A DNA stretch of 64,000 bases from Lusitaniella coriacea LEGE 07157 (GCF_015207425.1 NZ_JADEWZ010000009.1:62001-126000); one strand, 5' to 3'; shown: positions 6,735 through 64,000, numbered from the stretch's first letter. The notes: generated from the sequence alone by a model not told the origin. Translations and numbers: made by a program.

Positions 6735-7093
6735 TGGCAAAGAAAAAGAAATCCACTCAACAATCGCCAACACGCTACAAAATGCACGTCAAAAAGGGCG
6801 ACACCGTACAAGTGATCTCCGGTCGCGATAAAGGCAAAATCGGTGAAGTGTTGCAAAGCTTGCCCAAGTCAAGCAAAGTTGTCGTTAAAGGGGTCAACAT
6901 CAAAACCAAACACGTCAAACCCCAACAAGAAGGAGAATCGGGACGCATCGAAACTGTTGAAGCCCCCATTCATAGCTCGAATATCATGCTCTATTCGTCC
7001 AAAGAAAAAGTGGCTAGCCGCATTTGCTATAGCTTTACAGAAGACGGTCGAAAAGTGCGAATGCTCAAAAAAACTGGGGAAATTATTGACTAG
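6734..7093 (+). CDS. rplX: Ribosomal protein L24
   Basis: Assembly-initiator protein of the large subunit. A KOW motif ([19 protein letters not shown]) spans about residues 21-39. The N-terminal extension of about 15 lysine-rich residues is longer than in enterobacterial L24 but common in cyanobacteria. It starts inside the rplN stop codon. Confidence 0.96.
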
Positions 7094-54136: not shown

Positions 54137-55324
54137 TTAATTTGCGGAAATTTGAGCGACAATTGCTTTACCAATTTCTAGAGAAGAGGTTGCAGCAGGA
54201 GAGGGTGCATTGATAACATGAATAGCATTTTTATCGGGGACAATTAAAAAATCATCCACTAATTTTCCATCATTTTTCAATGCTTGCGCGCGAACTCCTG
54301 CATGGGTGGGAATGAGATCGTCTTCTTGAACTTCTGGAATGAGTTGTTGCAAACTTCGGGTAAAGGCGGCTTTACTGAAAGAACGGAGGATTTCTTTTAT
54401 CCCTTCATCGGCGTGTTTGGCGGCGAGTTTCCAAAATCCGGGATAAGTCATAACTTCAGAAAAGTCTCGCCAGTCAAAATCTGTTTTATTGTACCCTTCT
54501 CGCTTGAAACTGAGAACTGCGTTGGGCCCTGCGTGAACGCTACCGTCAATCATTTTGGTGAAGTGAACCCCAAGGAAAGGAAAAGAGGGGTTGGGAACGG
54601 GATAAATGAGGGTTTTGACAAGATAGCGTTTTTCGGGCTTGAGTTCGTAATATTCGCCACGAAAGGGAACGATTTTCGCCGGGGGATCGATATCATTCAA
54701 TTTTGCCACGCGATCGCTGTGTAGTCCCGCACAATTGATGATAAAGCGCGTTTCAATTTCACCTCGATTGGTTTCTAGGATTTGAGTTTCATTTGTTTTA
54801 TTGATTTTCTCGACTTTCGTATTTAAGCGAATTTCCCCTCCAGCATTCTGGAGCAGTTCGGCATATTTTTGGCAAACCTGTTTATAGTCTGCAATTCCGG
54901 TGGAACGAACGCGAATTCCTGCCAAACAACGAACGTGTGGTTCGATTTTTTTGACTTCTTCTGCTGTGATTTTTTCGATTTCAACGTTGTTGGCAATACC
55001 TCGGTCATACAAGTTTTCTAAGGCTTGGATTTGGTTCTCTTCTGTTGCGACAATTACCTTTCCACAAACTTCATGAGCAATGTCATATTTCTTGCAAAAT
55101 TCCACCATTGACTGGCAACCTTGCCGACAAAATTTTGCTTTAAAACTTCCGGGTTTGTAGTAAATTCCCGAATGAATAACGCCGCTATTATTCCCCGTTT
55201 GATGAAAGGCGAGTTGCGGTTCTTTTTCAATAACTAAAATCTTTTTATGGGGATAATTCTGACTTAAAGTCATTGCGGTGGAAAGTCCGATAATTCCGCC
55301 GCCAATAATTGTGAAATCGTACAT
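54137..55324 (-). CDS. lhgO: L-2-hydroxyglutarate oxidase
   Basis: FAD-dependent enzyme returning L-2-hydroxyglutarate to 2-oxoglutarate. ATG at 55324 gives MYDFTIIGGGIIGLSTAM with the FAD-binding GxGxxG-type fold at the start; an 18-codon longer frame runs into pyk. The 395 residues include HQTGNNSGVIHSGIYYKPGS, characteristic of this DadA-type family, and the C-terminal INAPSPAATSSLEIG. Start and pyk stop are 10 bases apart, so the two form an operon. Confidence 0.92.
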   Translation of the reverse strand: MYDFTIIGGGIIGLSTAMTLSQNYPHKKILVIEKEPQLAFHQTGNNSGVIHSGIYYKPGSFKAKFCRQGCQSMVEFCKKYDIAHEVCGKVIVATEENQIQALENLYDRGIANNVEIEKITAEEVKKIEPHVRCLAGIRVRSTGIADYKQVCQKYAELLQNAGGEIRLNTKVEKINKTNETQILETNRGEIETRFIINCAGLHSDRVAKLNDIDPPAKIVPFRGEYYELKPEKRYLVKTLIYPVPNPSFPFLGVHFTKMIDGSVHAGPNAVLSFKREGYNKTDFDWRDFSEVMTYPGFWKLAAKHADEGIKEILRSFSKAAFTRSLQQLIPEVQEDDLIPTHAGVRAQALKNDGKLVDDFLIVPDKNAIHVINAPSPAATSSLEIGKAIVAQISAN

Positions 55325-55334
55325 TAAAAATCCT

Positions 55335-56789
55335 TTAACGATCGCGCAAAGTGTGAATTTTGAGGAAATTGGTGCCACGGACTTGCTGTATGGGACTTCC
55401 TCCTAGGATCAGAATTTTATCGCCCGATCGCGCGATTTGTCGCTGACGTAAAATATTCTCGACTGCGGTGACGAGGGATTCCACAGAAGTTACGGGTTCT
55501 TCAATGAGAAGGGGAATCACCCCCCAAATGAGATTGAGGCGATGGTAGGTGAGGGGTTCTGGGGTAAAGGCAACGACGGGAACGCCGGGACGTTCTGCTG
55601 CGGCGAGTTTTGCAGTGTATCCCGTTGTGGTAAATGCGGCAATGCAGCACAGATTTATTATTTTGTCAATAACATTCAAAGCTTCGCTGAGGGCGTTGGT
55701 TTCGCTGAATTCTGTGGGAGGGAAGTTAACAAACTCCAATTCCGGTTCCATCGCCGATGCAATTCGCGCCATCATTGCCACAGCCGCAACGGGATGTTTG
55801 CCCACTGCCGATTCCCCCGAAAGCATTACCGCATCGGTTCCATCCGCGATCGCGTTTGCCACGTCGCTGGCTTCTGCGCGGGTGGGACGGGAGTTTTCGA
55901 TCATGCTCTCTAACATCTGCGTGGCAGTAATGACGGGGATTCCCGCCTGATTGCAGGCTCGAATAATTTTCTTTTGCAGGAGGGGAACTTTTTCCGGTTT
56001 CATTTCCACCCCCAAATCTCCTCGCGCCACCATCAATCCATCGCATTCTCGCACCAAATCGTCTAAATGCGCGATCGCCTGGGGTTTTTCGATCTTGGCA
56101 ATAACAGGGAGATTCGGCGCGCCGCGATCGCGCAAAAAGGTTTTGAGGGTGCGAATATCCTCCGCCGTGCGGACAAAGCTCAACGCAACCCAATCCACCC
56201 CTTGGACAATTCCAAATTCTAAATCCTGGCGATCTTTTTCCGTCAGAGAGGGCAAACGCAGGTTGAGGCTGGGGAAATTAACGCCTTTGCGACTTTTGAG
56301 CAAACCGCCACGAATCACCTTACAGGTCACCACAGGGGGCGCGATCGCGATCGCTTCGAGTTCGAGTTGTCCGTCATCGAGCAGGATACGCATTCCCAGT
56401 TCTGCCTCTTCTGCGAGGAAGGGATAATCGATGGGAATCGCATTAGGGCAATCGTCAGCGCGATCCTGGGGAACGAGATCGATGGGAGCTTCTTGAATTA
56501 GCGAGATCGCGCCAGCGCTCTGCCCTTGGAAGCCCGCGCGATCGGGTAATTGCGCCACGCGAACCTTGGGTCCCTGGAGGTCTTGCAAGAGCGTCACCGG
56601 ACAATCTAGCGCCTCAGAAGCCTCACGAATTCGTTGAATCGTTGTTGCATGATCCTCATAACTTCCGTGGGAAAAATTCAACCGCGCAACCGTCATTCCC
56701 GCTTCAATCAGTTGGCGAATTATTTCTGGGGAAGAACTTGCAGGGCCCAGAGTTGCAACAATTTTAGTTCGATGAGATAGGGGGAGCAT
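55335..56789 (-). CDS. pyk: Pyruvate kinase
   Basis: Final glycolytic enzyme making pyruvate and ATP. The 484 residues have [12 protein letters not shown] and [12 protein letters not shown] at the start, the substrate-site [22 protein letters not shown], and [20 protein letters not shown]. The C-terminal domain is complete. Adjacent lhgO suggests shared transcription with carbon metabolism. Confidence 0.97.
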
Positions 56790-57434: not shown

Positions 57435-58310
57435 ATGCTAAATCGTTTTTTCTCCTCCTTTTGGTATTCCCACCGTCGCTGGCTATACGGACTTCTTGCC
57501 ACCGTTACAGCGTTGGGATTGTGTATCGGTACGCCTCAACCCACTCAAGCCGTTCCCTGGTGGCAACTCTTGTTGCGCGGCGTGCAAATCTTACAACTGT
57601 CCAATATCTCCAACGAACAAGAAGTACAACTCGGACAGCGAATTGATGGGCAATTGCAAAGCCAACTCGCTCGCAATCGAACCCCTATTTCTCGACATCG
57701 TGCGGCGAATGGATACTTGAATCAAATCGGTCAGCGTTTAGTCCAAGTCAGCGATCGCCGCGATATTCCTTATACCTTTAAAGTTGTCGAAGACCTGAAG
57801 GTTAATGCCTTTGCCACAATGGGCGGTTTTGTTTATATCAATGCGGGGTTAATGCTCAAAGCGGAAAATGAGGCAGAACTTGCCAGCGTTGTGGCGCACG
57901 AAATGGGACACATTCAAGGTCGCCACGCGATCGAACAAATGCGCCAACGCGCGATTCAAGCGGGTTTGCTCTCTGCTGCGGGATTGGATGAGAGTGCCGC
58001 CGTACAAATTGGGGTTCAACTTGCTCTCAATCTTCCCAACAGTCGCGAGGATGAATTAGAAGCCGATCAAATTGGATTGGAGACTTTGCGCCGCGCGCGA
58101 TACGCGCCTTCGGCAATGGTGACATTCATGCAAAAACTCCAAGAGAGCGGTCGGGGTTCTCCGCCTGCTATTTTAAGCACCCACCCAGCCGTTTCCGATC
58201 GCGTGCGTATTTTGTCACAGGCAATTCGAGCCAATCCCCCAACCGCAACTGAGGTCGATGGGTTGGATAGTACTGCATACCGCAACAAAATGCGTAGCTT
58301 TGCACCGTGA
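57435..58310 (+). CDS. Secreted M48-family zinc metalloprotease
   Basis: The 291 residues begin with a signal peptide (hydrophobic 14-33, cleavage near PTQA-VPWW). The catalytic site is VVAHEMGHIQGRHA, with the third ligand Glu in EDELEADQIGLETLRRA. Late STHPAVSDRVRIL is typical of periplasmic BepA/LoiP-like members that handle outer-membrane protein quality (role inferred). The gene is bracketed by a direct repeat of about 75 bases. Confidence 0.92.
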   Translation: MLNRFFSSFWYSHRRWLYGLLATVTALGLCIGTPQPTQAVPWWQLLLRGVQILQLSNISNEQEVQLGQRIDGQLQSQLARNRTPISRHRAANGYLNQIGQRLVQVSDRRDIPYTFKVVEDLKVNAFATMGGFVYINAGLMLKAENEAELASVVAHEMGHIQGRHAIEQMRQRAIQAGLLSAAGLDESAAVQIGVQLALNLPNSREDELEADQIGLETLRRARYAPSAMVTFMQKLQESGRGSPPAILSTHPAVSDRVRILSQAIRANPPTATEVDGLDSTAYRNKMRSFAP

Positions 58311-58423: not shown

Positions 58424-59230
58424 CTATTCGGATGTTGCTTCCGAAGAACAGAAATCGTGTCTTTCAATCCGTTCGATGGTGGCGAGCAATTCCTCAGAGG
58501 GATTTTCGACCGAATACAATTCCCTCAAGGCATCCGACCACAGTTCTCGGTCGGCAAAATATCCCGATCGCGCGATCGTGGTGTCCTCTGCTGTTAACCT
58601 CTCAATCGATGCCAATACCCTTCCCGATTCAATGACTGCCAACTCTACCGCAATCCAGTTGCGTTCATCTTCTCCCATCATCCGGAACGAAATCCAAGGT
58701 ATGTCTTGAAGTTGGGACGTTCCTGCGGGAACCAAACGCCATTCATAAGCGCGATCGGGTTGCAAAGATTTTCCTTCTTCCCCGTAAAGGATACTGCGTT
58801 GTTCGGGGTCAAGGGTTTGACTCCACATCACTTCACCACTACGCACGTCTATCACCTCGATTTGCGACCAAGAACCCTGCCAAAGGAAAAACGCGCGATC
58901 GCCCCAAACTTTAGACGTTGTAACCTCTCTATTATCTATATTTGCCAATCGACCGGGAGTAACCGTACAGGTTTTCTTTTCGTTGTTTTCTCCTCGCGAA
59001 CCACCAGGAACCTTGCGACGACGGAACCGATCCCAAATAAAGCTAGCACCGCCGGGACATTTGCGACGCAAACCTTGCCACACGCACCTCCGTTCTAGTT
59101 CTGAGGAATCACTCTGTTTATTTTGTTGTATGGTTATGGTTACAGCGTGTAGTGGAAAACTGGAACCAACGAAAATAATAGCTGAAAGGGTAAAAAATAC
59201 TGAATTTTTCGCTATTTTAATTTTATTCAT
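58424..59230 (-). CDS. Secreted DUF928 protein
   Basis: ATG at 59230 gives 268 residues starting MNKIKIAKNSVFFTLSAIIF, a signal peptide (cleavage near FPLHA). A basic cysteine-containing segment follows (RRCVWQGLRRKCPGG), then a beta-rich domain with DRAFFLWQGSWSQIEVIDVR and RAYEWRLVP, matching the DUF928 family of cyanobacteria, function unknown. The start overlaps the stop of the CHAT-CHASE2 gene by 4 bases (ATGA), so its translation is coupled. It is the last gene of the cassette. Confidence 0.85.
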   Translation of the reverse strand: MNKIKIAKNSVFFTLSAIIFVGSSFPLHAVTITIQQNKQSDSSELERRCVWQGLRRKCPGGASFIWDRFRRRKVPGGSRGENNEKKTCTVTPGRLANIDNREVTTSKVWGDRAFFLWQGSWSQIEVIDVRSGEVMWSQTLDPEQRSILYGEEGKSLQPDRAYEWRLVPAGTSQLQDIPWISFRMMGEDERNWIAVELAVIESGRVLASIERLTAEDTTIARSGYFADRELWSDALRELYSVENPSEELLATIERIERHDFCSSEATSE

Positions 59231-61572
59231 TGAAATTTCTCCGTATTTGATGAAAAGTGAATGTAAGTCCAGAAAACTGCAAGGGGAAAAACGCAAGGAA
59301 GCAGCACAGCGACGGAAATATAAGCTTGCAGTGCCATAACCATATAAACAGTCGTCGCACCATACAGCACCACAATCCATTGCTTTCTTTGATGAGGATT
59401 ACCAATTAGCATTAGCATTGCACCTTTCCCCAACAACGCCGCCAGCAAAACCATCCAAAAATTGGAAATTGGAACCACCAATCGCTGCGTTAATAAATGG
59501 TGCAACATATAAGCGTGATACTCGCCTCCCGTAAATTGCTTCACTCGAAAATTTAGGGCTAAAGGAATGGGAAAATTGTCGCTTCCCTCTTCGTATAATC
59601 CCGCCTCACCATAGCCTCCTGGTGCAATTAGAACCACTTGCTGACCAATTCTGGGGGGAATGTCGCCTTCCAATAACTTATGGGCGGAAATGCGCTCGTA
59701 GGATTGATTGGGAGGTAATGAAAAGTCTACGATGGGGCGTAACCACAGAGCAAAACTTGGGAAAATTGGCAGTCGCAAACGATGTAAAAATGCTGTTTTT
59801 TCATCTAAATTTTTGGCACTATTGAGATAGTTCGCGACCGAAGTCCGTAAAGATTGTTGTGCTTGGGATTGGAGATCGAAAGATTCTTGTTTGAGTTGGT
59901 GCGCGATCGCGAGCAAATAGGCAAAGGGACAAGTTTCAATACAATCTTTACCGTGGGGTAACAACTCAACATATCCCGGAAAGAAATAGATATCCCCTTG
60001 CATTGTTCGATTGAGATCGGCAATTTGAGGACTAACACCCGCATCTTTTCCGGTGAATTCATCAGCAGCAAAAACCAATAAAATGTCTTTGTTAACTGTA
60101 TTTTCAATAACTTTCCTGAGTTTATTTGTATTCTCAGTTTGTTCTTTTTCGCGATTTAAAACATAATCAATACCAATTGTTTTAGGCTCTAGTTTTGAAA
60201 GTTTATTTAGCAAATCTCCTAGATAGCTATAGTCGATGGGCGAAATTTCTCTTAGTCTCGGATCTTTGAGTCGAGAAGCTTCATCAATTTGCACCAAGAG
60301 GACAGGCGCGCGTTTTTGAAAACCGACTTGCTGAGTCGCGTAACGATAAGTAGCTTGAGTAGTGAGCCGAATTCCTAACAACCCATCTTGTAAGGGCGGT
60401 AAAATGCTTAATGCCAAGACAGAACCCAGGGCAACAATTTCCAAACGACTTGGTAACCAACGCTTCCATCCCTTCGGTTGCAAGCGAAATAATTCAGCTT
60501 CAGGGTGACGAAATAAGGAAGGAATTGAATAAGCGGAAGGATAGGTGAGTACTTTTTCCTGTTGCTTGAGAAACTGACAAGCATCCACCATTGACTCATT
60601 GACATCTTTGTATTGAGCGAGACTGCGAAAGAATTGTTTTGAGAATTCTTGGGCGACTTGATTATGAATAGGTTCGCGGAAAACAATAACTTGATTGAGT
60701 CCTAAATTAATCAAAGATTGAGCGATATCGATGCCACTACAGGAGTTGAAGATTGCAAATTGTAATCCTTTTTCTTTTGCTATTTCGAGTGCGGGTTCAA
60801 TTTCGCGAATAAAAATCGATGTGTTGGGCGCAATGCTTAATTCTCCTCCCAATCCTTCATTACTGTGTCCGGCAAAAAAGAGAATATCCCAGCCCTTTTC
60901 ATCGGCAATTTCTCGAACAATTTTATGTTTTAAATCGTCACAATTTTTGTCTCCTTGTTTCCATCCCACAAACGTGATGACATCTTTACCAAACAATGAT
61001 TCAAGCTCCTCTTTGTCTTTCTTGAGATCGAGTCCCGTGTCGTCACCAAAAATTGCCAGAATTCTAGGTTTGCGGCGAATAGGGTGTACGGATTCGTCGC
61101 TAATATTGGCAGGCGATCGCGCAATATAGATCTTGCCTTTTGTCCCCAAGTGTGTTCCAATTTCCCAGGTTTCCCAAGGCAAACGAGCTAATTCTTTGGA
61201 ATTGCAAGTAATAAAAATTTCTACGCGCTGGCAATCTTCGGCTAAACTAGCTTGAGCAATTTTACGAGTAATAGGATGCAATTCGTGACTGAGTAACCAA
61301 TAATGAAATTGGTCTAATAATTTTGCTTCCGCTTGAACTAAATCGCCACGCCAATCTATATTTTTGAGGCGAGCAACTCCACTTCCCTCAACTTTCCCTC
61401 GCAATCTTTGATAGTAACCGAGGTAGCTTTTGCGCCATTGTGCATACAATTGGGTAATAGCAGCAGGGTAATCCAGTTGAGTTGCAATGGTTAGTCCTCG
61501 TTCCCCGGATAATTTGAAATGGCACGTATTACCCAGTTGTATAATTTCCAGTTGAAAGGTTGTTTTAGTCAT
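59227..61572 (-). CDS. CHAT protease-CHASE2 membrane sensor protein
   Basis: The 781 residues combine an N-terminal CHAT (caspase-HetF-type) domain with catalytic His236 (FFAGHSNEG) and Cys278 (FNSCSGID), a membrane helix at about 385-405, a CHASE2 extracytoplasmic sensor domain (about 405-690; LLVQIDEASRLKDPRLREISPIDYSYL region) and three C-terminal helices. No kinase or cyclase follows CHASE2. The predicted picture is an external signal controlling a cytosolic cysteine protease (inference). It starts 10 bases after the DUF1822 stop. Confidence 0.88.
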   Translation of the reverse strand: MTKTTFQLEIIQLGNTCHFKLSGERGLTIATQLDYPAAITQLYAQWRKSYLGYYQRLRGKVEGSGVARLKNIDWRGDLVQAEAKLLDQFHYWLLSHELHPITRKIAQASLAEDCQRVEIFITCNSKELARLPWETWEIGTHLGTKGKIYIARSPANISDESVHPIRRKPRILAIFGDDTGLDLKKDKEELESLFGKDVITFVGWKQGDKNCDDLKHKIVREIADEKGWDILFFAGHSNEGLGGELSIAPNTSIFIREIEPALEIAKEKGLQFAIFNSCSGIDIAQSLINLGLNQVIVFREPIHNQVAQEFSKQFFRSLAQYKDVNESMVDACQFLKQQEKVLTYPSAYSIPSLFRHPEAELFRLQPKGWKRWLPSRLEIVALGSVLALSILPPLQDGLLGIRLTTQATYRYATQQVGFQKRAPVLLVQIDEASRLKDPRLREISPIDYSYLGDLLNKLSKLEPKTIGIDYVLNREKEQTENTNKLRKVIENTVNKDILLVFAADEFTGKDAGVSPQIADLNRTMQGDIYFFPGYVELLPHGKDCIETCPFAYLLAIAHQLKQESFDLQSQAQQSLRTSVANYLNSAKNLDEKTAFLHRLRLPIFPSFALWLRPIVDFSLPPNQSYERISAHKLLEGDIPPRIGQQVVLIAPGGYGEAGLYEEGSDNFPIPLALNFRVKQFTGGEYHAYMLHHLLTQRLVVPISNFWMVLLAALLGKGAMLMLIGNPHQRKQWIVVLYGATTVYMVMALQAYISVAVLLPCVFPLAVFWTYIHFSSNTEKFQ

Positions 61573-61582
61573 CGGTTGCTAA

Positions 61583-62953
61583 TTACGAATTACTAGAAAA
61601 TTCTAAGGGAGGTAGGGTTAATTCCTCTCCTGTTGCCGAGATGAGCGTCAATAAAAATTTCTCATCATAGGTTCCGATTAATTTAGCGAATAAATACTCG
61701 TTTTCATTCCCAAATTGGAGAGATTCCTCAATTAAAATTCCCGTTTGATCTGAAATTCTCCATTGCACTTGCGAAGGTAAAGTTTGATGGGGGATTGCGC
61801 CAAGAACGAGTAATAAACTCCAACTTTCTTCATCGGGAATTGACCAAGTAACGCCATACAGCCTGATTCCATTCTCGAAGGCTAAATCTTGATAAGCATA
61901 ACCTGCATCTGGAGGAATTTTCAGATTATGATTTTGTTGAATTTCAGAGAAGATGTCACTTGCTTCTTTTGTTTCTGTGACCGATCTTATTGGACTGGGA
62001 ACGGGAGGACTAAATATTTGCCAAGTCCATTCTTGTATCAATTCTTTCATTTGTGTAGCTGAACATAGCGGACTCGAAGCGGGTTGATTAATTATTTCCC
62101 AAGTCCATTCTTGTGCGAATTCTTGAATCCAGCGACTCGCATTTGTGGCTTGTTGAGTGATGATTTTCAGGAAATCGGAAATATGCTGGCTTGGCGAGAG
62201 AATTGTTCCTGTTTGAACACGATAAATCCAATCGAGTAATTCTGGATGAGTTAAGACTGCAACGCCTTGTTCCCAACTCAAAACTTGCCAAAGGGATTGA
62301 TTTTGGATTTGAGGAAGTAAGGATTCAAGCTGATTTTTAAGTTGAGTAAGATTGTTGGCGCGAATGGGATCGGGTAAAGGAATTGCTTCAACATCCAGAC
62401 ATTGTAGATAGAGCAATAGATCGTTAAAATCATTCTCAAATCGCGCAATATCTATTGAATAATTCCAATCTAATTGGGGTTGAGTTCGATCGCGTTCTTG
62501 AATCGCGCGATCGCGCGGCAAGAAACCTCGAATTGCAGCCATTTCTAACTCTTCATCAATACCAATGACAATATAGAAATGTGCGGCAAATTCAGGCAAA
62601 TCTAGAACTGCTCTGGGAATGGAAATTTCTGAATCGCTCAAAGACATTGTGGGAATGAGACACACCTTAAAATCACCCACTTGTAGCTTACAAATTGCAT
62701 CCAAGAAGTTGGCATGAATAAGATTGGATAGAGAGCAATTGTCAGTTTCCAGTTTTAAGTCTGGTTGTCGCTTTTTCACCCATTCTTCAAAACTCGATAG
62801 CGCGAGAGATTGAACGTATAACGACCACTGACGTTGAGAATTCTTCGCGGCTTGAGAAAACTGTAGCGCGCGATCGATCTGTTCGGTTTCGAGTTCTAGG
62901 GTTTCAGACGGTGTTGTGAATTCGAGAAATTCGTTCATCGTAATATTAGTCAT
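61583..62953 (-). CDS. DUF1822 family protein
   Basis: The 456 residues start MTNITMNEFLEFT (ATG at 62953); a second ATG five codons later is possible, and the frame is open 26 codons further up into the previous gene. It is soluble, acidic, and has a beta-rich C-terminal region (GIRLYGVTWSIPDEESWSLLLVLG, LTLISATGEELTLPPLEF) typical of DUF1822. A duplicated segment QEWTWEIINQP / QEWTWQIFSPP occurs in the middle. Function unknown. Confidence 0.82.
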   Translation of the reverse strand: MTNITMNEFLEFTTPSETLELETEQIDRALQFSQAAKNSQRQWSLYVQSLALSSFEEWVKKRQPDLKLETDNCSLSNLIHANFLDAICKLQVGDFKVCLIPTMSLSDSEISIPRAVLDLPEFAAHFYIVIGIDEELEMAAIRGFLPRDRAIQERDRTQPQLDWNYSIDIARFENDFNDLLLYLQCLDVEAIPLPDPIRANNLTQLKNQLESLLPQIQNQSLWQVLSWEQGVAVLTHPELLDWIYRVQTGTILSPSQHISDFLKIITQQATNASRWIQEFAQEWTWEIINQPASSPLCSATQMKELIQEWTWQIFSPPVPSPIRSVTETKEASDIFSEIQQNHNLKIPPDAGYAYQDLAFENGIRLYGVTWSIPDEESWSLLLVLGAIPHQTLPSQVQWRISDQTGILIEESLQFGNENEYLFAKLIGTYDEKFLLTLISATGEELTLPPLEFSSNS

Positions 62954-62957
62954 GGTT

Positions 62958-64000
62958 CTATTGTTGGGAATTGAGGTATTGACAAATGTTTTGAGCGAGT
63001 TGGCTGGTTGGGAAGTTGTGATGTACAGCATGAATTTCTTTTTTGTCTGTTTCCATCACTCTTGAAATTTCTTCACTCAGAAGGCTTTCAATTTGGGTTG
63101 CTAAATCTCGGAGTCGATCGGGATTTGCGTAGTCCTGAGCGATTTGAAAAATATGCTTTTTGAGGCAAGATAGAGTATTACGAGCAATGTCGCTGCGGAG
63201 ATTTTCGAGTTCGAGTAAGCGACTAACTCGCGGTTGATCTTTCAAACTAATGCGAGAGGCAATGTCTCCCATTGATAGACCTTGGCAATAGAATAAACGA
63301 AGTCCGGTAAGGAATTTTTCACTTTTTTCTATAGCTTGTTCTCTCCGTCTTGGCGTATTTCTTCCCTGTATAAAATAGGCGACTCTATTTTCTATTGTTG
63401 TTTGTACGGCTCGTTGCAAACAGGAATTAAACTGTTGGCGATACTCATTTAAGAAACCACTTTGTTCGTCTTCGGTTTCTGCTTGTTGATACACTCGATT
63501 TCTGGCTTTGGGAATGTCTAAAGATTCGTCTTCGGGAAGTGCTACGCCTTTTTGACGAAGGCGATCGCGCCGCAGGAGTTGTGAGAGGTTTTGCAGTTGG
63601 TGGAGGACTTGTTCGGGGGAAGGGGAAGGAGTCAGGCGTTGTGCGATGCGCTGGAGTTGGTCTGGAGTGGGTTTGGGATAGGCTTGGTGGCTTCCCGGTT
63701 TGCGATCTCTCAGGAATTCTGTGCGATAAATTTGGTGGAATTGTTCGAGGAGTTGGAGCGATCGCGCGATTTCTGCATCGGTGCGTTCAAAAGTAGTCAG
63801 AATGCGATGTAACCCCCCTGGTGTCACGCGAACCAGCAGCAACCAGTCACTAATGTGTTCGATCCCCCGTTCCAAAAGGAATCGTTTGATCGCGCGATCG
63901 CCTTTGACTAGGCGCACTGTCCAAGTTGAAAGGTTACTTCTCTCCGGGTCAAAAGTATCGAGAATGCGGGAAATCAAAGAGCGATCTTCACCCTCCACTA
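62958..64000 (-). CDS. Sigma-like HTH protein, partial
   Basis: The frame is open to the window edge; the visible 346 residues from GTG at 63998 are probably not the true start. It is basic and helical with motifs FDPERSNLSTWTVRLVK and ERGIEHISDWLLL, and a C-terminal HTH-like segment LRLFYCQGLSMGDIASRISLKDQPRVSRLLELE. This resembles sigma-70-like proteins I recall next to DUF1822/CHASE2 genes. A regulatory role is inferred. Stop is 4 bases from the DUF1822 start. Confidence 0.65.
   Translation of the reverse strand, partial: VEGEDRSLISRILDTFDPERSNLSTWTVRLVKGDRAIKRFLLERGIEHISDWLLLVRVTPGGLHRILTTFERTDAEIARSLQLLEQFHQIYRTEFLRDRKPGSHQAYPKPTPDQLQRIAQRLTPSPSPEQVLHQLQNLSQLLRRDRLRQKGVALPEDESLDIPKARNRVYQQAETEDEQSGFLNEYRQQFNSCLQRAVQTTIENRVAYFIQGRNTPRRREQAIEKSEKFLTGLRLFYCQGLSMGDIASRISLKDQPRVSRLLELENLRSDIARNTLSCLKKHIFQIAQDYANPDRLRDLATQIESLLSEEISRVMETDKKEIHAVHHNFPTSQLAQNICQYLNSQQ

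Follow-up and report, generated by a model that had tools for sequence, protein, structure and literature searches.

The stretch analysed here, referred to as the window, is 64,000 nucleotides of Lusitaniella coriacea LEGE 07157 (NZ_JADEWZ010000009.1:62001-126000), a cyanobacterium with a genome of 5.86 Mb. Open reading frame (ORF) calling places four minus-strand genes at window positions 58424-64000, which encode a sigma-like protein, a DUF1822 protein, a CHAT-CHASE2 receptor and a secreted DUF928 protein. The reading favoured here, at roughly even confidence, sees the cassette as an operon of the EACC2 type that signals across the envelope by proteolysis, and in which the CHAT protease would release a sigma factor. 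That the genes form one pathway is very likely. A sequence-only reading of the window had put the system forward as undescribed, and this part fails: the combination of sigma factor, DUF1822, EACC2-caspase and CHASE2 was predicted in 2021, and caspase-CHASE2 membrane proteins of the same topology were noted in Trichodesmium in 2010-2012. Three of the four cassette parts match the predicted EACC2 system. The new elements are the secreted DUF928 protein as a widespread CHASE2 neighbour, a predicted sigma-type fold that Pfam misses, and the frequent flanking genes for CHAT proteins with tetratricopeptide repeats (TPR-CHAT).

The CHASE2 domain is widespread among receptors, and few of its signals have been identified. 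It is recognised in the window protein by Pfam (PF05226, E=1.3e-16) and is divergent relative to the other CHASE2 domains of the same genome. The CHAT domain of the same protein is also matched (PF12770, E=2.5e-6, 27.6 bits against a cut-off of 24), as is DUF1822 in the neighbouring product (PF08852, E=8.4e-49), so both the fusion and the neighbour had been read correctly. The putative catalytic residues His236 and Cys278 lie where the sequence-only reading had placed them and are invariant in the alignment (80/80 homologues); judged by residue conservation alone, a caspase-like active site is upheld. The region N-terminal to CHAT is likewise conserved among homologues. Hydrophobic segments occur at residues 373, 697 and 739, and because the CHAT part precedes the first membrane segment, it would be cytosolic if CHASE2 lies outside, an arrangement already suggested for proteins of this kind. 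The sequence features support this predicted topology: one chain would join an extracytoplasmic CHASE2 and a cytosolic, caspase-like CHAT whose dyad residues are intact. The CHAT domain is probably an active protease.

Relatives of the core gene were obtained through an alignment-based contig scan, a single-protein scan having given none, and all 80 of the 80 named ones are cyanobacterial. The locus survey covers 80 further loci from named cyanobacteria, with counts limited to loci with sufficient flanking sequence. Directly 3′ of CHAT-CHASE2 lies the secreted gene in 55 of 71 loci, DUF1822 is at most three genes upstream of CHAT-CHASE2 in 48 of 68, and the sigma-like gene is at most five genes upstream in 47 of 68; all four genes occur together in 38 of 61. 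The order sigma-like, DUF1822, CHAT-CHASE2, DUF928 recurs over many cyanobacterial genera. The overlap between the CHAT-CHASE2 and secreted genes is most often 8 or 4 bases, and is 4 in the window, where the intergenic spacings are 4, 10 and -4 bases given the likely starts of the DUF1822 gene (62953) and the secreted gene (59230). The tight packing reported earlier is thereby borne out. Of 386 genomes sampled from the phylum, 24 (own genome counted) carry homologues of the secreted gene, and nearly all loci from those 24 genomes have a CHAT-CHASE2 gene adjoining it. The co-occurrence that had been anticipated is therefore strongly conserved. It remains plausible that CHAT acts on DUF1822 or the sigma-like protein downstream, as had been suggested.

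The whole sigma-like gene spans positions 6958 to ~8328 of locus L009 and extends ~330 bases beyond the window end. Its product has 456 amino acids (aa) from the likely ATG and at most 488 if translation starts at the first TTG; this exceeds the length of a typical extracytoplasmic function (ECF) factor. The earlier label of helix-turn-helix (HTH) or sigma-like protein receives no support from Pfam, as the Pfam families that its 39 homologues match most often include no sigma domain. The Pfam matches are scattered over unrelated families and none was adopted as its identity. It is the predicted fold that sustains the label. The AlphaFold model (mean predicted local distance difference test, pLDDT, 88; predicted template modelling score, pTM, 0.53) gives a VIA-align list of sigma factors at Z 6.7-7.8, with spans of residues 19-155 and up to 391. 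This list has entries titled RPSB and RPSD, which are presumably sigma-B and sigma-D. Plain Foldseek returns weak matches only, one of which is a DeoR HTH. Since the single Z values are below 8, the evidence for a sigma-type fold is good, not final. The 456-aa protein is thus predicted to have a sigma-factor fold overlooked by Pfam, and it probably acts at RNA polymerase.

The secreted protein has a hydrophobic, signal-like N-terminus. Its DUF928 label does not stand for the window protein alone, which has no Pfam DUF928 (PF06051) match. It stands at the level of the family: 30 of 39 aligned members match PF06051 with E values no higher than 0.1, the best being 3.2e-8, and hhalign profile-profile comparison with DUF928 gives a probability of 96.9 over 145 columns, so the protein is a divergent DUF928. 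The model (mean pLDDT 77, with higher values in the folded portion that starts near residue 110) is read by Foldseek and VIA-align as an immunoglobulin (Ig)/FN3-like sandwich (residues ~85-187) followed by helices (~187-257), and an Ig-type fold is supported by this prediction. The best solved match is the C-terminal domain of MtxA (VIA-align Z 7.2, 149 residues, root-mean-square deviation 4.9), while FN3 domains score Z 6.0 and below, mostly over the sandwich only. The likeness to MtxA is moderate at this Z and may reflect merely a common arrangement. MtxA has a signal peptide and a C-terminal domain that is Ig-like plus TPR, and after its gene comes one for a CHASE2 cyclase (PMC4439547). A secreted LysM-FecR protein is encoded directly before CHASE2 kinases in Proteobacteria (PMC5192318). 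Both systems resemble the window in that a gene for a secreted protein adjoins the CHASE2 receptor gene; their outputs are a cyclase or a kinase, unlike the window. No sequence homology was detected between the Eleftheria LysM-FecR protein and DUF928, so the link consists of fold type and gene position only.

A neighbourhood of DUF928 and CHASE2 has been noted once before, for a single species (PMC5587647). Among 58 regions picked around DUF928 genes of other genomes, which hold 63 DUF928 genes, a CHASE2 gene is adjacent to DUF928 in 38/63 cases and a TPR-CHAT gene lies within three genes in 25/63. The background of 218 genes more than four genes from DUF928 holds 3 CHASE2 and 1 TPR-CHAT; the former are rates per DUF928 gene and the latter rates per gene. 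The CHASE2 proteins paired with DUF928 also bear histidine kinase, cyclase or GGDEF outputs, and in these the CHASE2 domain is N-terminal, unlike in the window protein. The genome of L. coriacea has seven EACC2-type CHAT genes, six with CHASE2; a paralogue on contig C2 encodes a 1593-aa CHAT protein without CHASE2, and three other cassettes have ordinary DUF928 genes downstream. The distances of CHASE2 and DUF928 are correlated (r 0.90 overall, 0.66-0.84 in subsets); since co-inheritance of linked genes would produce this too, the correlation was not taken to prove contact.

That DUF928 is a CHASE2 partner appears somewhat favoured from these neighbourhoods. A secreted partner beside CHASE2, whatever the output, would be a concrete candidate ligand or co-sensor. 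A wider and rather doubtful possibility is that secreted Ig-fold proteins (DUF928 in cyanobacteria; MtxA and LysM-FecR in Proteobacteria) are general CHASE2 partners. In cyanobacteria they would form an input module, in many cases together with a secreted TPR-CHAT, joined to interchangeable outputs that include the CHAT-protease-to-sigma pathway. A TIR-annotated protein with a C-terminal CHASE2 match is encoded divergently from a DUF928 gene on plasmid pB of Kovacikia minuta (L307:3107-7152), and is possibly another output for a DUF928-CHASE2 module.

The scheme proposed for the cassette begins outside the cell, where the secreted DUF928/Ig-TPR-like protein would bind an extracytoplasmic signal or present it to CHASE2. 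A conformational change of CHASE2 would then cross the membrane and switch on the cytosolic CHAT. This would cut DUF1822 or, as the less favoured option, its own chain or the sigma-like protein. The sigma-like factor, held until then by DUF1822, would be freed and would guide RNA polymerase to target promoters. Each functional step, with its substrate and its signal, is a proposal. The scheme is favoured because of the conserved order, the invariant His and Cys, the sigma-type fold, the DUF928-CHASE2 adjacency and the parallels with Csx29 and HetF. The role of DUF1822 as substrate or anti-sigma is a tentative assignment; a PDB sequence search with this protein gave no match. Other PDB sequence comparisons gave faint hits to alpha-hemoglobin stabilizing protein, RpoN and a rhamnosidase, which were put down to chance.

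The first of these parallels is the CHAT protease Csx29, which has been tested and cleaves the sigma inhibitor Csx30, so that a sigma factor is freed (PMC10028731). The type III-E CRISPR system Csx29-Csx30-CASP-sigma is like the window cassette in co-encoding a CHAT protease, a sigma factor and a third protein. It differs in having a CRISPR effector and RNA sensing, whereas the window has a membrane CHASE2 sensor and no CRISPR effector; the third protein there inhibits sigma and is cut, as is proposed for DUF1822. If the scheme is true, the cassette would be a membrane-bound counterpart of Csx29-Csx30-sigma, with a caspase-like protease turning an outside signal into transcription. HetF of Anabaena is a cyanobacterial CHAT protease that cleaves PatU3, and hence one able to cut a regulator. 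The CHAT part of the window protein resembles it weakly (NCBIfam HetF, E=0.0057, 15 bits), far under the equivalog cut-off of 1200 bits, and the C-terminus and neighbours differ.

Several findings weigh against the release of a sigma factor through DUF1822. The fold matches of the sigma-like protein come from a helical model, and with such models Z values under 8, as here, can arise by chance. No conserved cleavage site is evident in the linkers of DUF1822 or the sigma-like protein; Craspase substrates reportedly have no conserved site either (PMC11106740). Some homologous loci are without DUF1822, the sigma-like gene or DUF928, several of them being cut by contig ends.

The main rival is the mechanism already put forward in print for EACC2 systems. 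In eLife 2021, Kaur et al. (PMC8195603) predicted these as an alpha+beta domain, a caspase and a variable C-terminus, with CHASE2 named, and reported that the caspase genes neighbour an ECF sigma factor and DUF1822. The window cassette agrees in its caspase-like domain with His/Cys, its CHASE2 C-terminus and its DUF1822 neighbour, and it has an N-terminal region before the caspase-like domain, here called EACC2-like. It differs in that the sigma-like neighbour is a candidate by its predicted fold, with no sequence-level sigma match, and in that the secreted DUF928 is an extra regular member, which the main text of Kaur et al. does not name (the literature search was limited to open-access papers). 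These authors propose autoproteolysis and a transcriptional step (PMC8195603). Applied here, CHAT would cut its own protein, sigma would carry the transcriptional side of a response that counters invaders or kills the cell, and DUF1822 would be an adaptor. The presence of the system in many multicellular cyanobacteria fits this proposal. The constant sigma-like gene and the secreted partner, however, suit signal-responsive transcription at least equally, and the four cassette proteins matched none of the PADLOC 2023 defence models with an E value of 1 or less, where the sigma-like product was represented by its 346 aa inside the window. The autoproteolytic response is, on balance, unlikely.

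It could also be that two proteases act in relay: a secreted TPR-CHAT would come first, outside the cell and with DUF928 as one conceivable target, and its effect would reach the cytosolic CHAT through CHASE2. A TPR-CHAT gene is within five genes of the cassette in 36 of 61 loci, where the number of CHAT matches outside the EACC2 type in L. coriacea would lead one to expect ~7% if its genome has ~5,000 genes, and TPR-CHAT accompanies DUF928-CHASE2 pairs of other outputs as well. Long TPR-CHAT proteins mostly have a signal-like N-terminus (45/56, versus 59/184 other genes) and keep the Cys motif (54/56). The signal call, however, is based on a rough hydrophobicity criterion, these genomes are rich in TPR-CHAT genes (42 CHAT matches in L. 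coriacea, 35 outside the EACC2 type), and no TPR-CHAT gene adjoins the window cassette. The relay is accordingly held to be improbable.

A structural role, with CHAT as a regulated, non-protease scaffold and the sigma-like protein as a DNA/RNA-binding protein without sigma function, would accord with the missing Pfam sigma domain and the weak Foldseek matches, the DeoR HTH among them. It is very improbable in view of the invariant His and Cys and the VIA-align list of sigma factors. Coincidental neighbours without a shared pathway are hardly credible: some loci do have one or more partners missing, yet order and overlaps are kept over many genera, paralogous cassettes exist in the same genome, and the locus survey led to the rejection of chance clustering.

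Table 1. Features of the cassette, in window coordinates.
Feature	Position	Strand	Basis
Sigma-like (HTH) gene that opens the operon; continues past the window end	62958-64000	-	ORF, predicted fold, conserved neighbourhood
DUF1822 gene; likely ATG 62953, longer ORF from 63031	61583-62953	-	Pfam PF08852, conserved neighbourhood
Receptor with EACC2-like N-terminal region, CHAT and CHASE2, 781 aa	59227-61572	-	Pfam, alignment, hydrophobic segments
CHAT domain, residues 98-333	60574-61281	-	Pfam PF12770
His236 codon; Cys278 codon	60865-60867; 60739-60741	-	Alignment of homologues
CHASE2 domain, residues 415-713, flanked by predicted membrane segments	59434-60330	-	Pfam PF05226
Secreted divergent DUF928 gene, 268 aa; shares 4 bases with the end of the CHAT-CHASE2 gene	58424-59230	-	PF06051 matches of the family, hhalign, model, Foldseek, VIA-align	

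Further loci of the L. coriacea genome (G000) carry related genes. A paralogous cassette at C12:76157-81712 (L062) consists of DUF1822, CHAT-CHASE2 and two tandem DUF928 genes. DUF1822 occurs without a CHAT neighbour at C37:4082-10612 (L063), beside ORFs of 176 and 1345 aa, and at C33:33022-35195 (L066), where a weak Pfam match suggests that the adjoining gene encodes a nucleotidyltransferase. At C3:127181-134424, C3:179430-185933 and C1:119548-124823 (L070, L071 and L075), a TPR-CHAT gene, a DUF928 gene and a gene for CHASE2 with a histidine kinase or GGDEF output form a trio. Contigs L191 and L192 of Mastigocoleus testarum BC008 share TPR-CHAT, CHAT-CHASE2, DUF928 and TPR-CHAT at equal spacing, which is perhaps a duplication or an assembly artefact.

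Within the window, an M48 peptidase gene (57435-58310, plus strand; Pfam E=8.6e-34) faces the end of the operon at a distance of ~110 bases. The minus-strand region 54137-56789 contains a pyruvate-kinase-like ORF (55335-56789) and an ORF resembling a flavin adenine dinucleotide (FAD) oxidoreductase, both labelled by sequence reading only; the two overlap by 44 bases if the GTG start of the latter holds.

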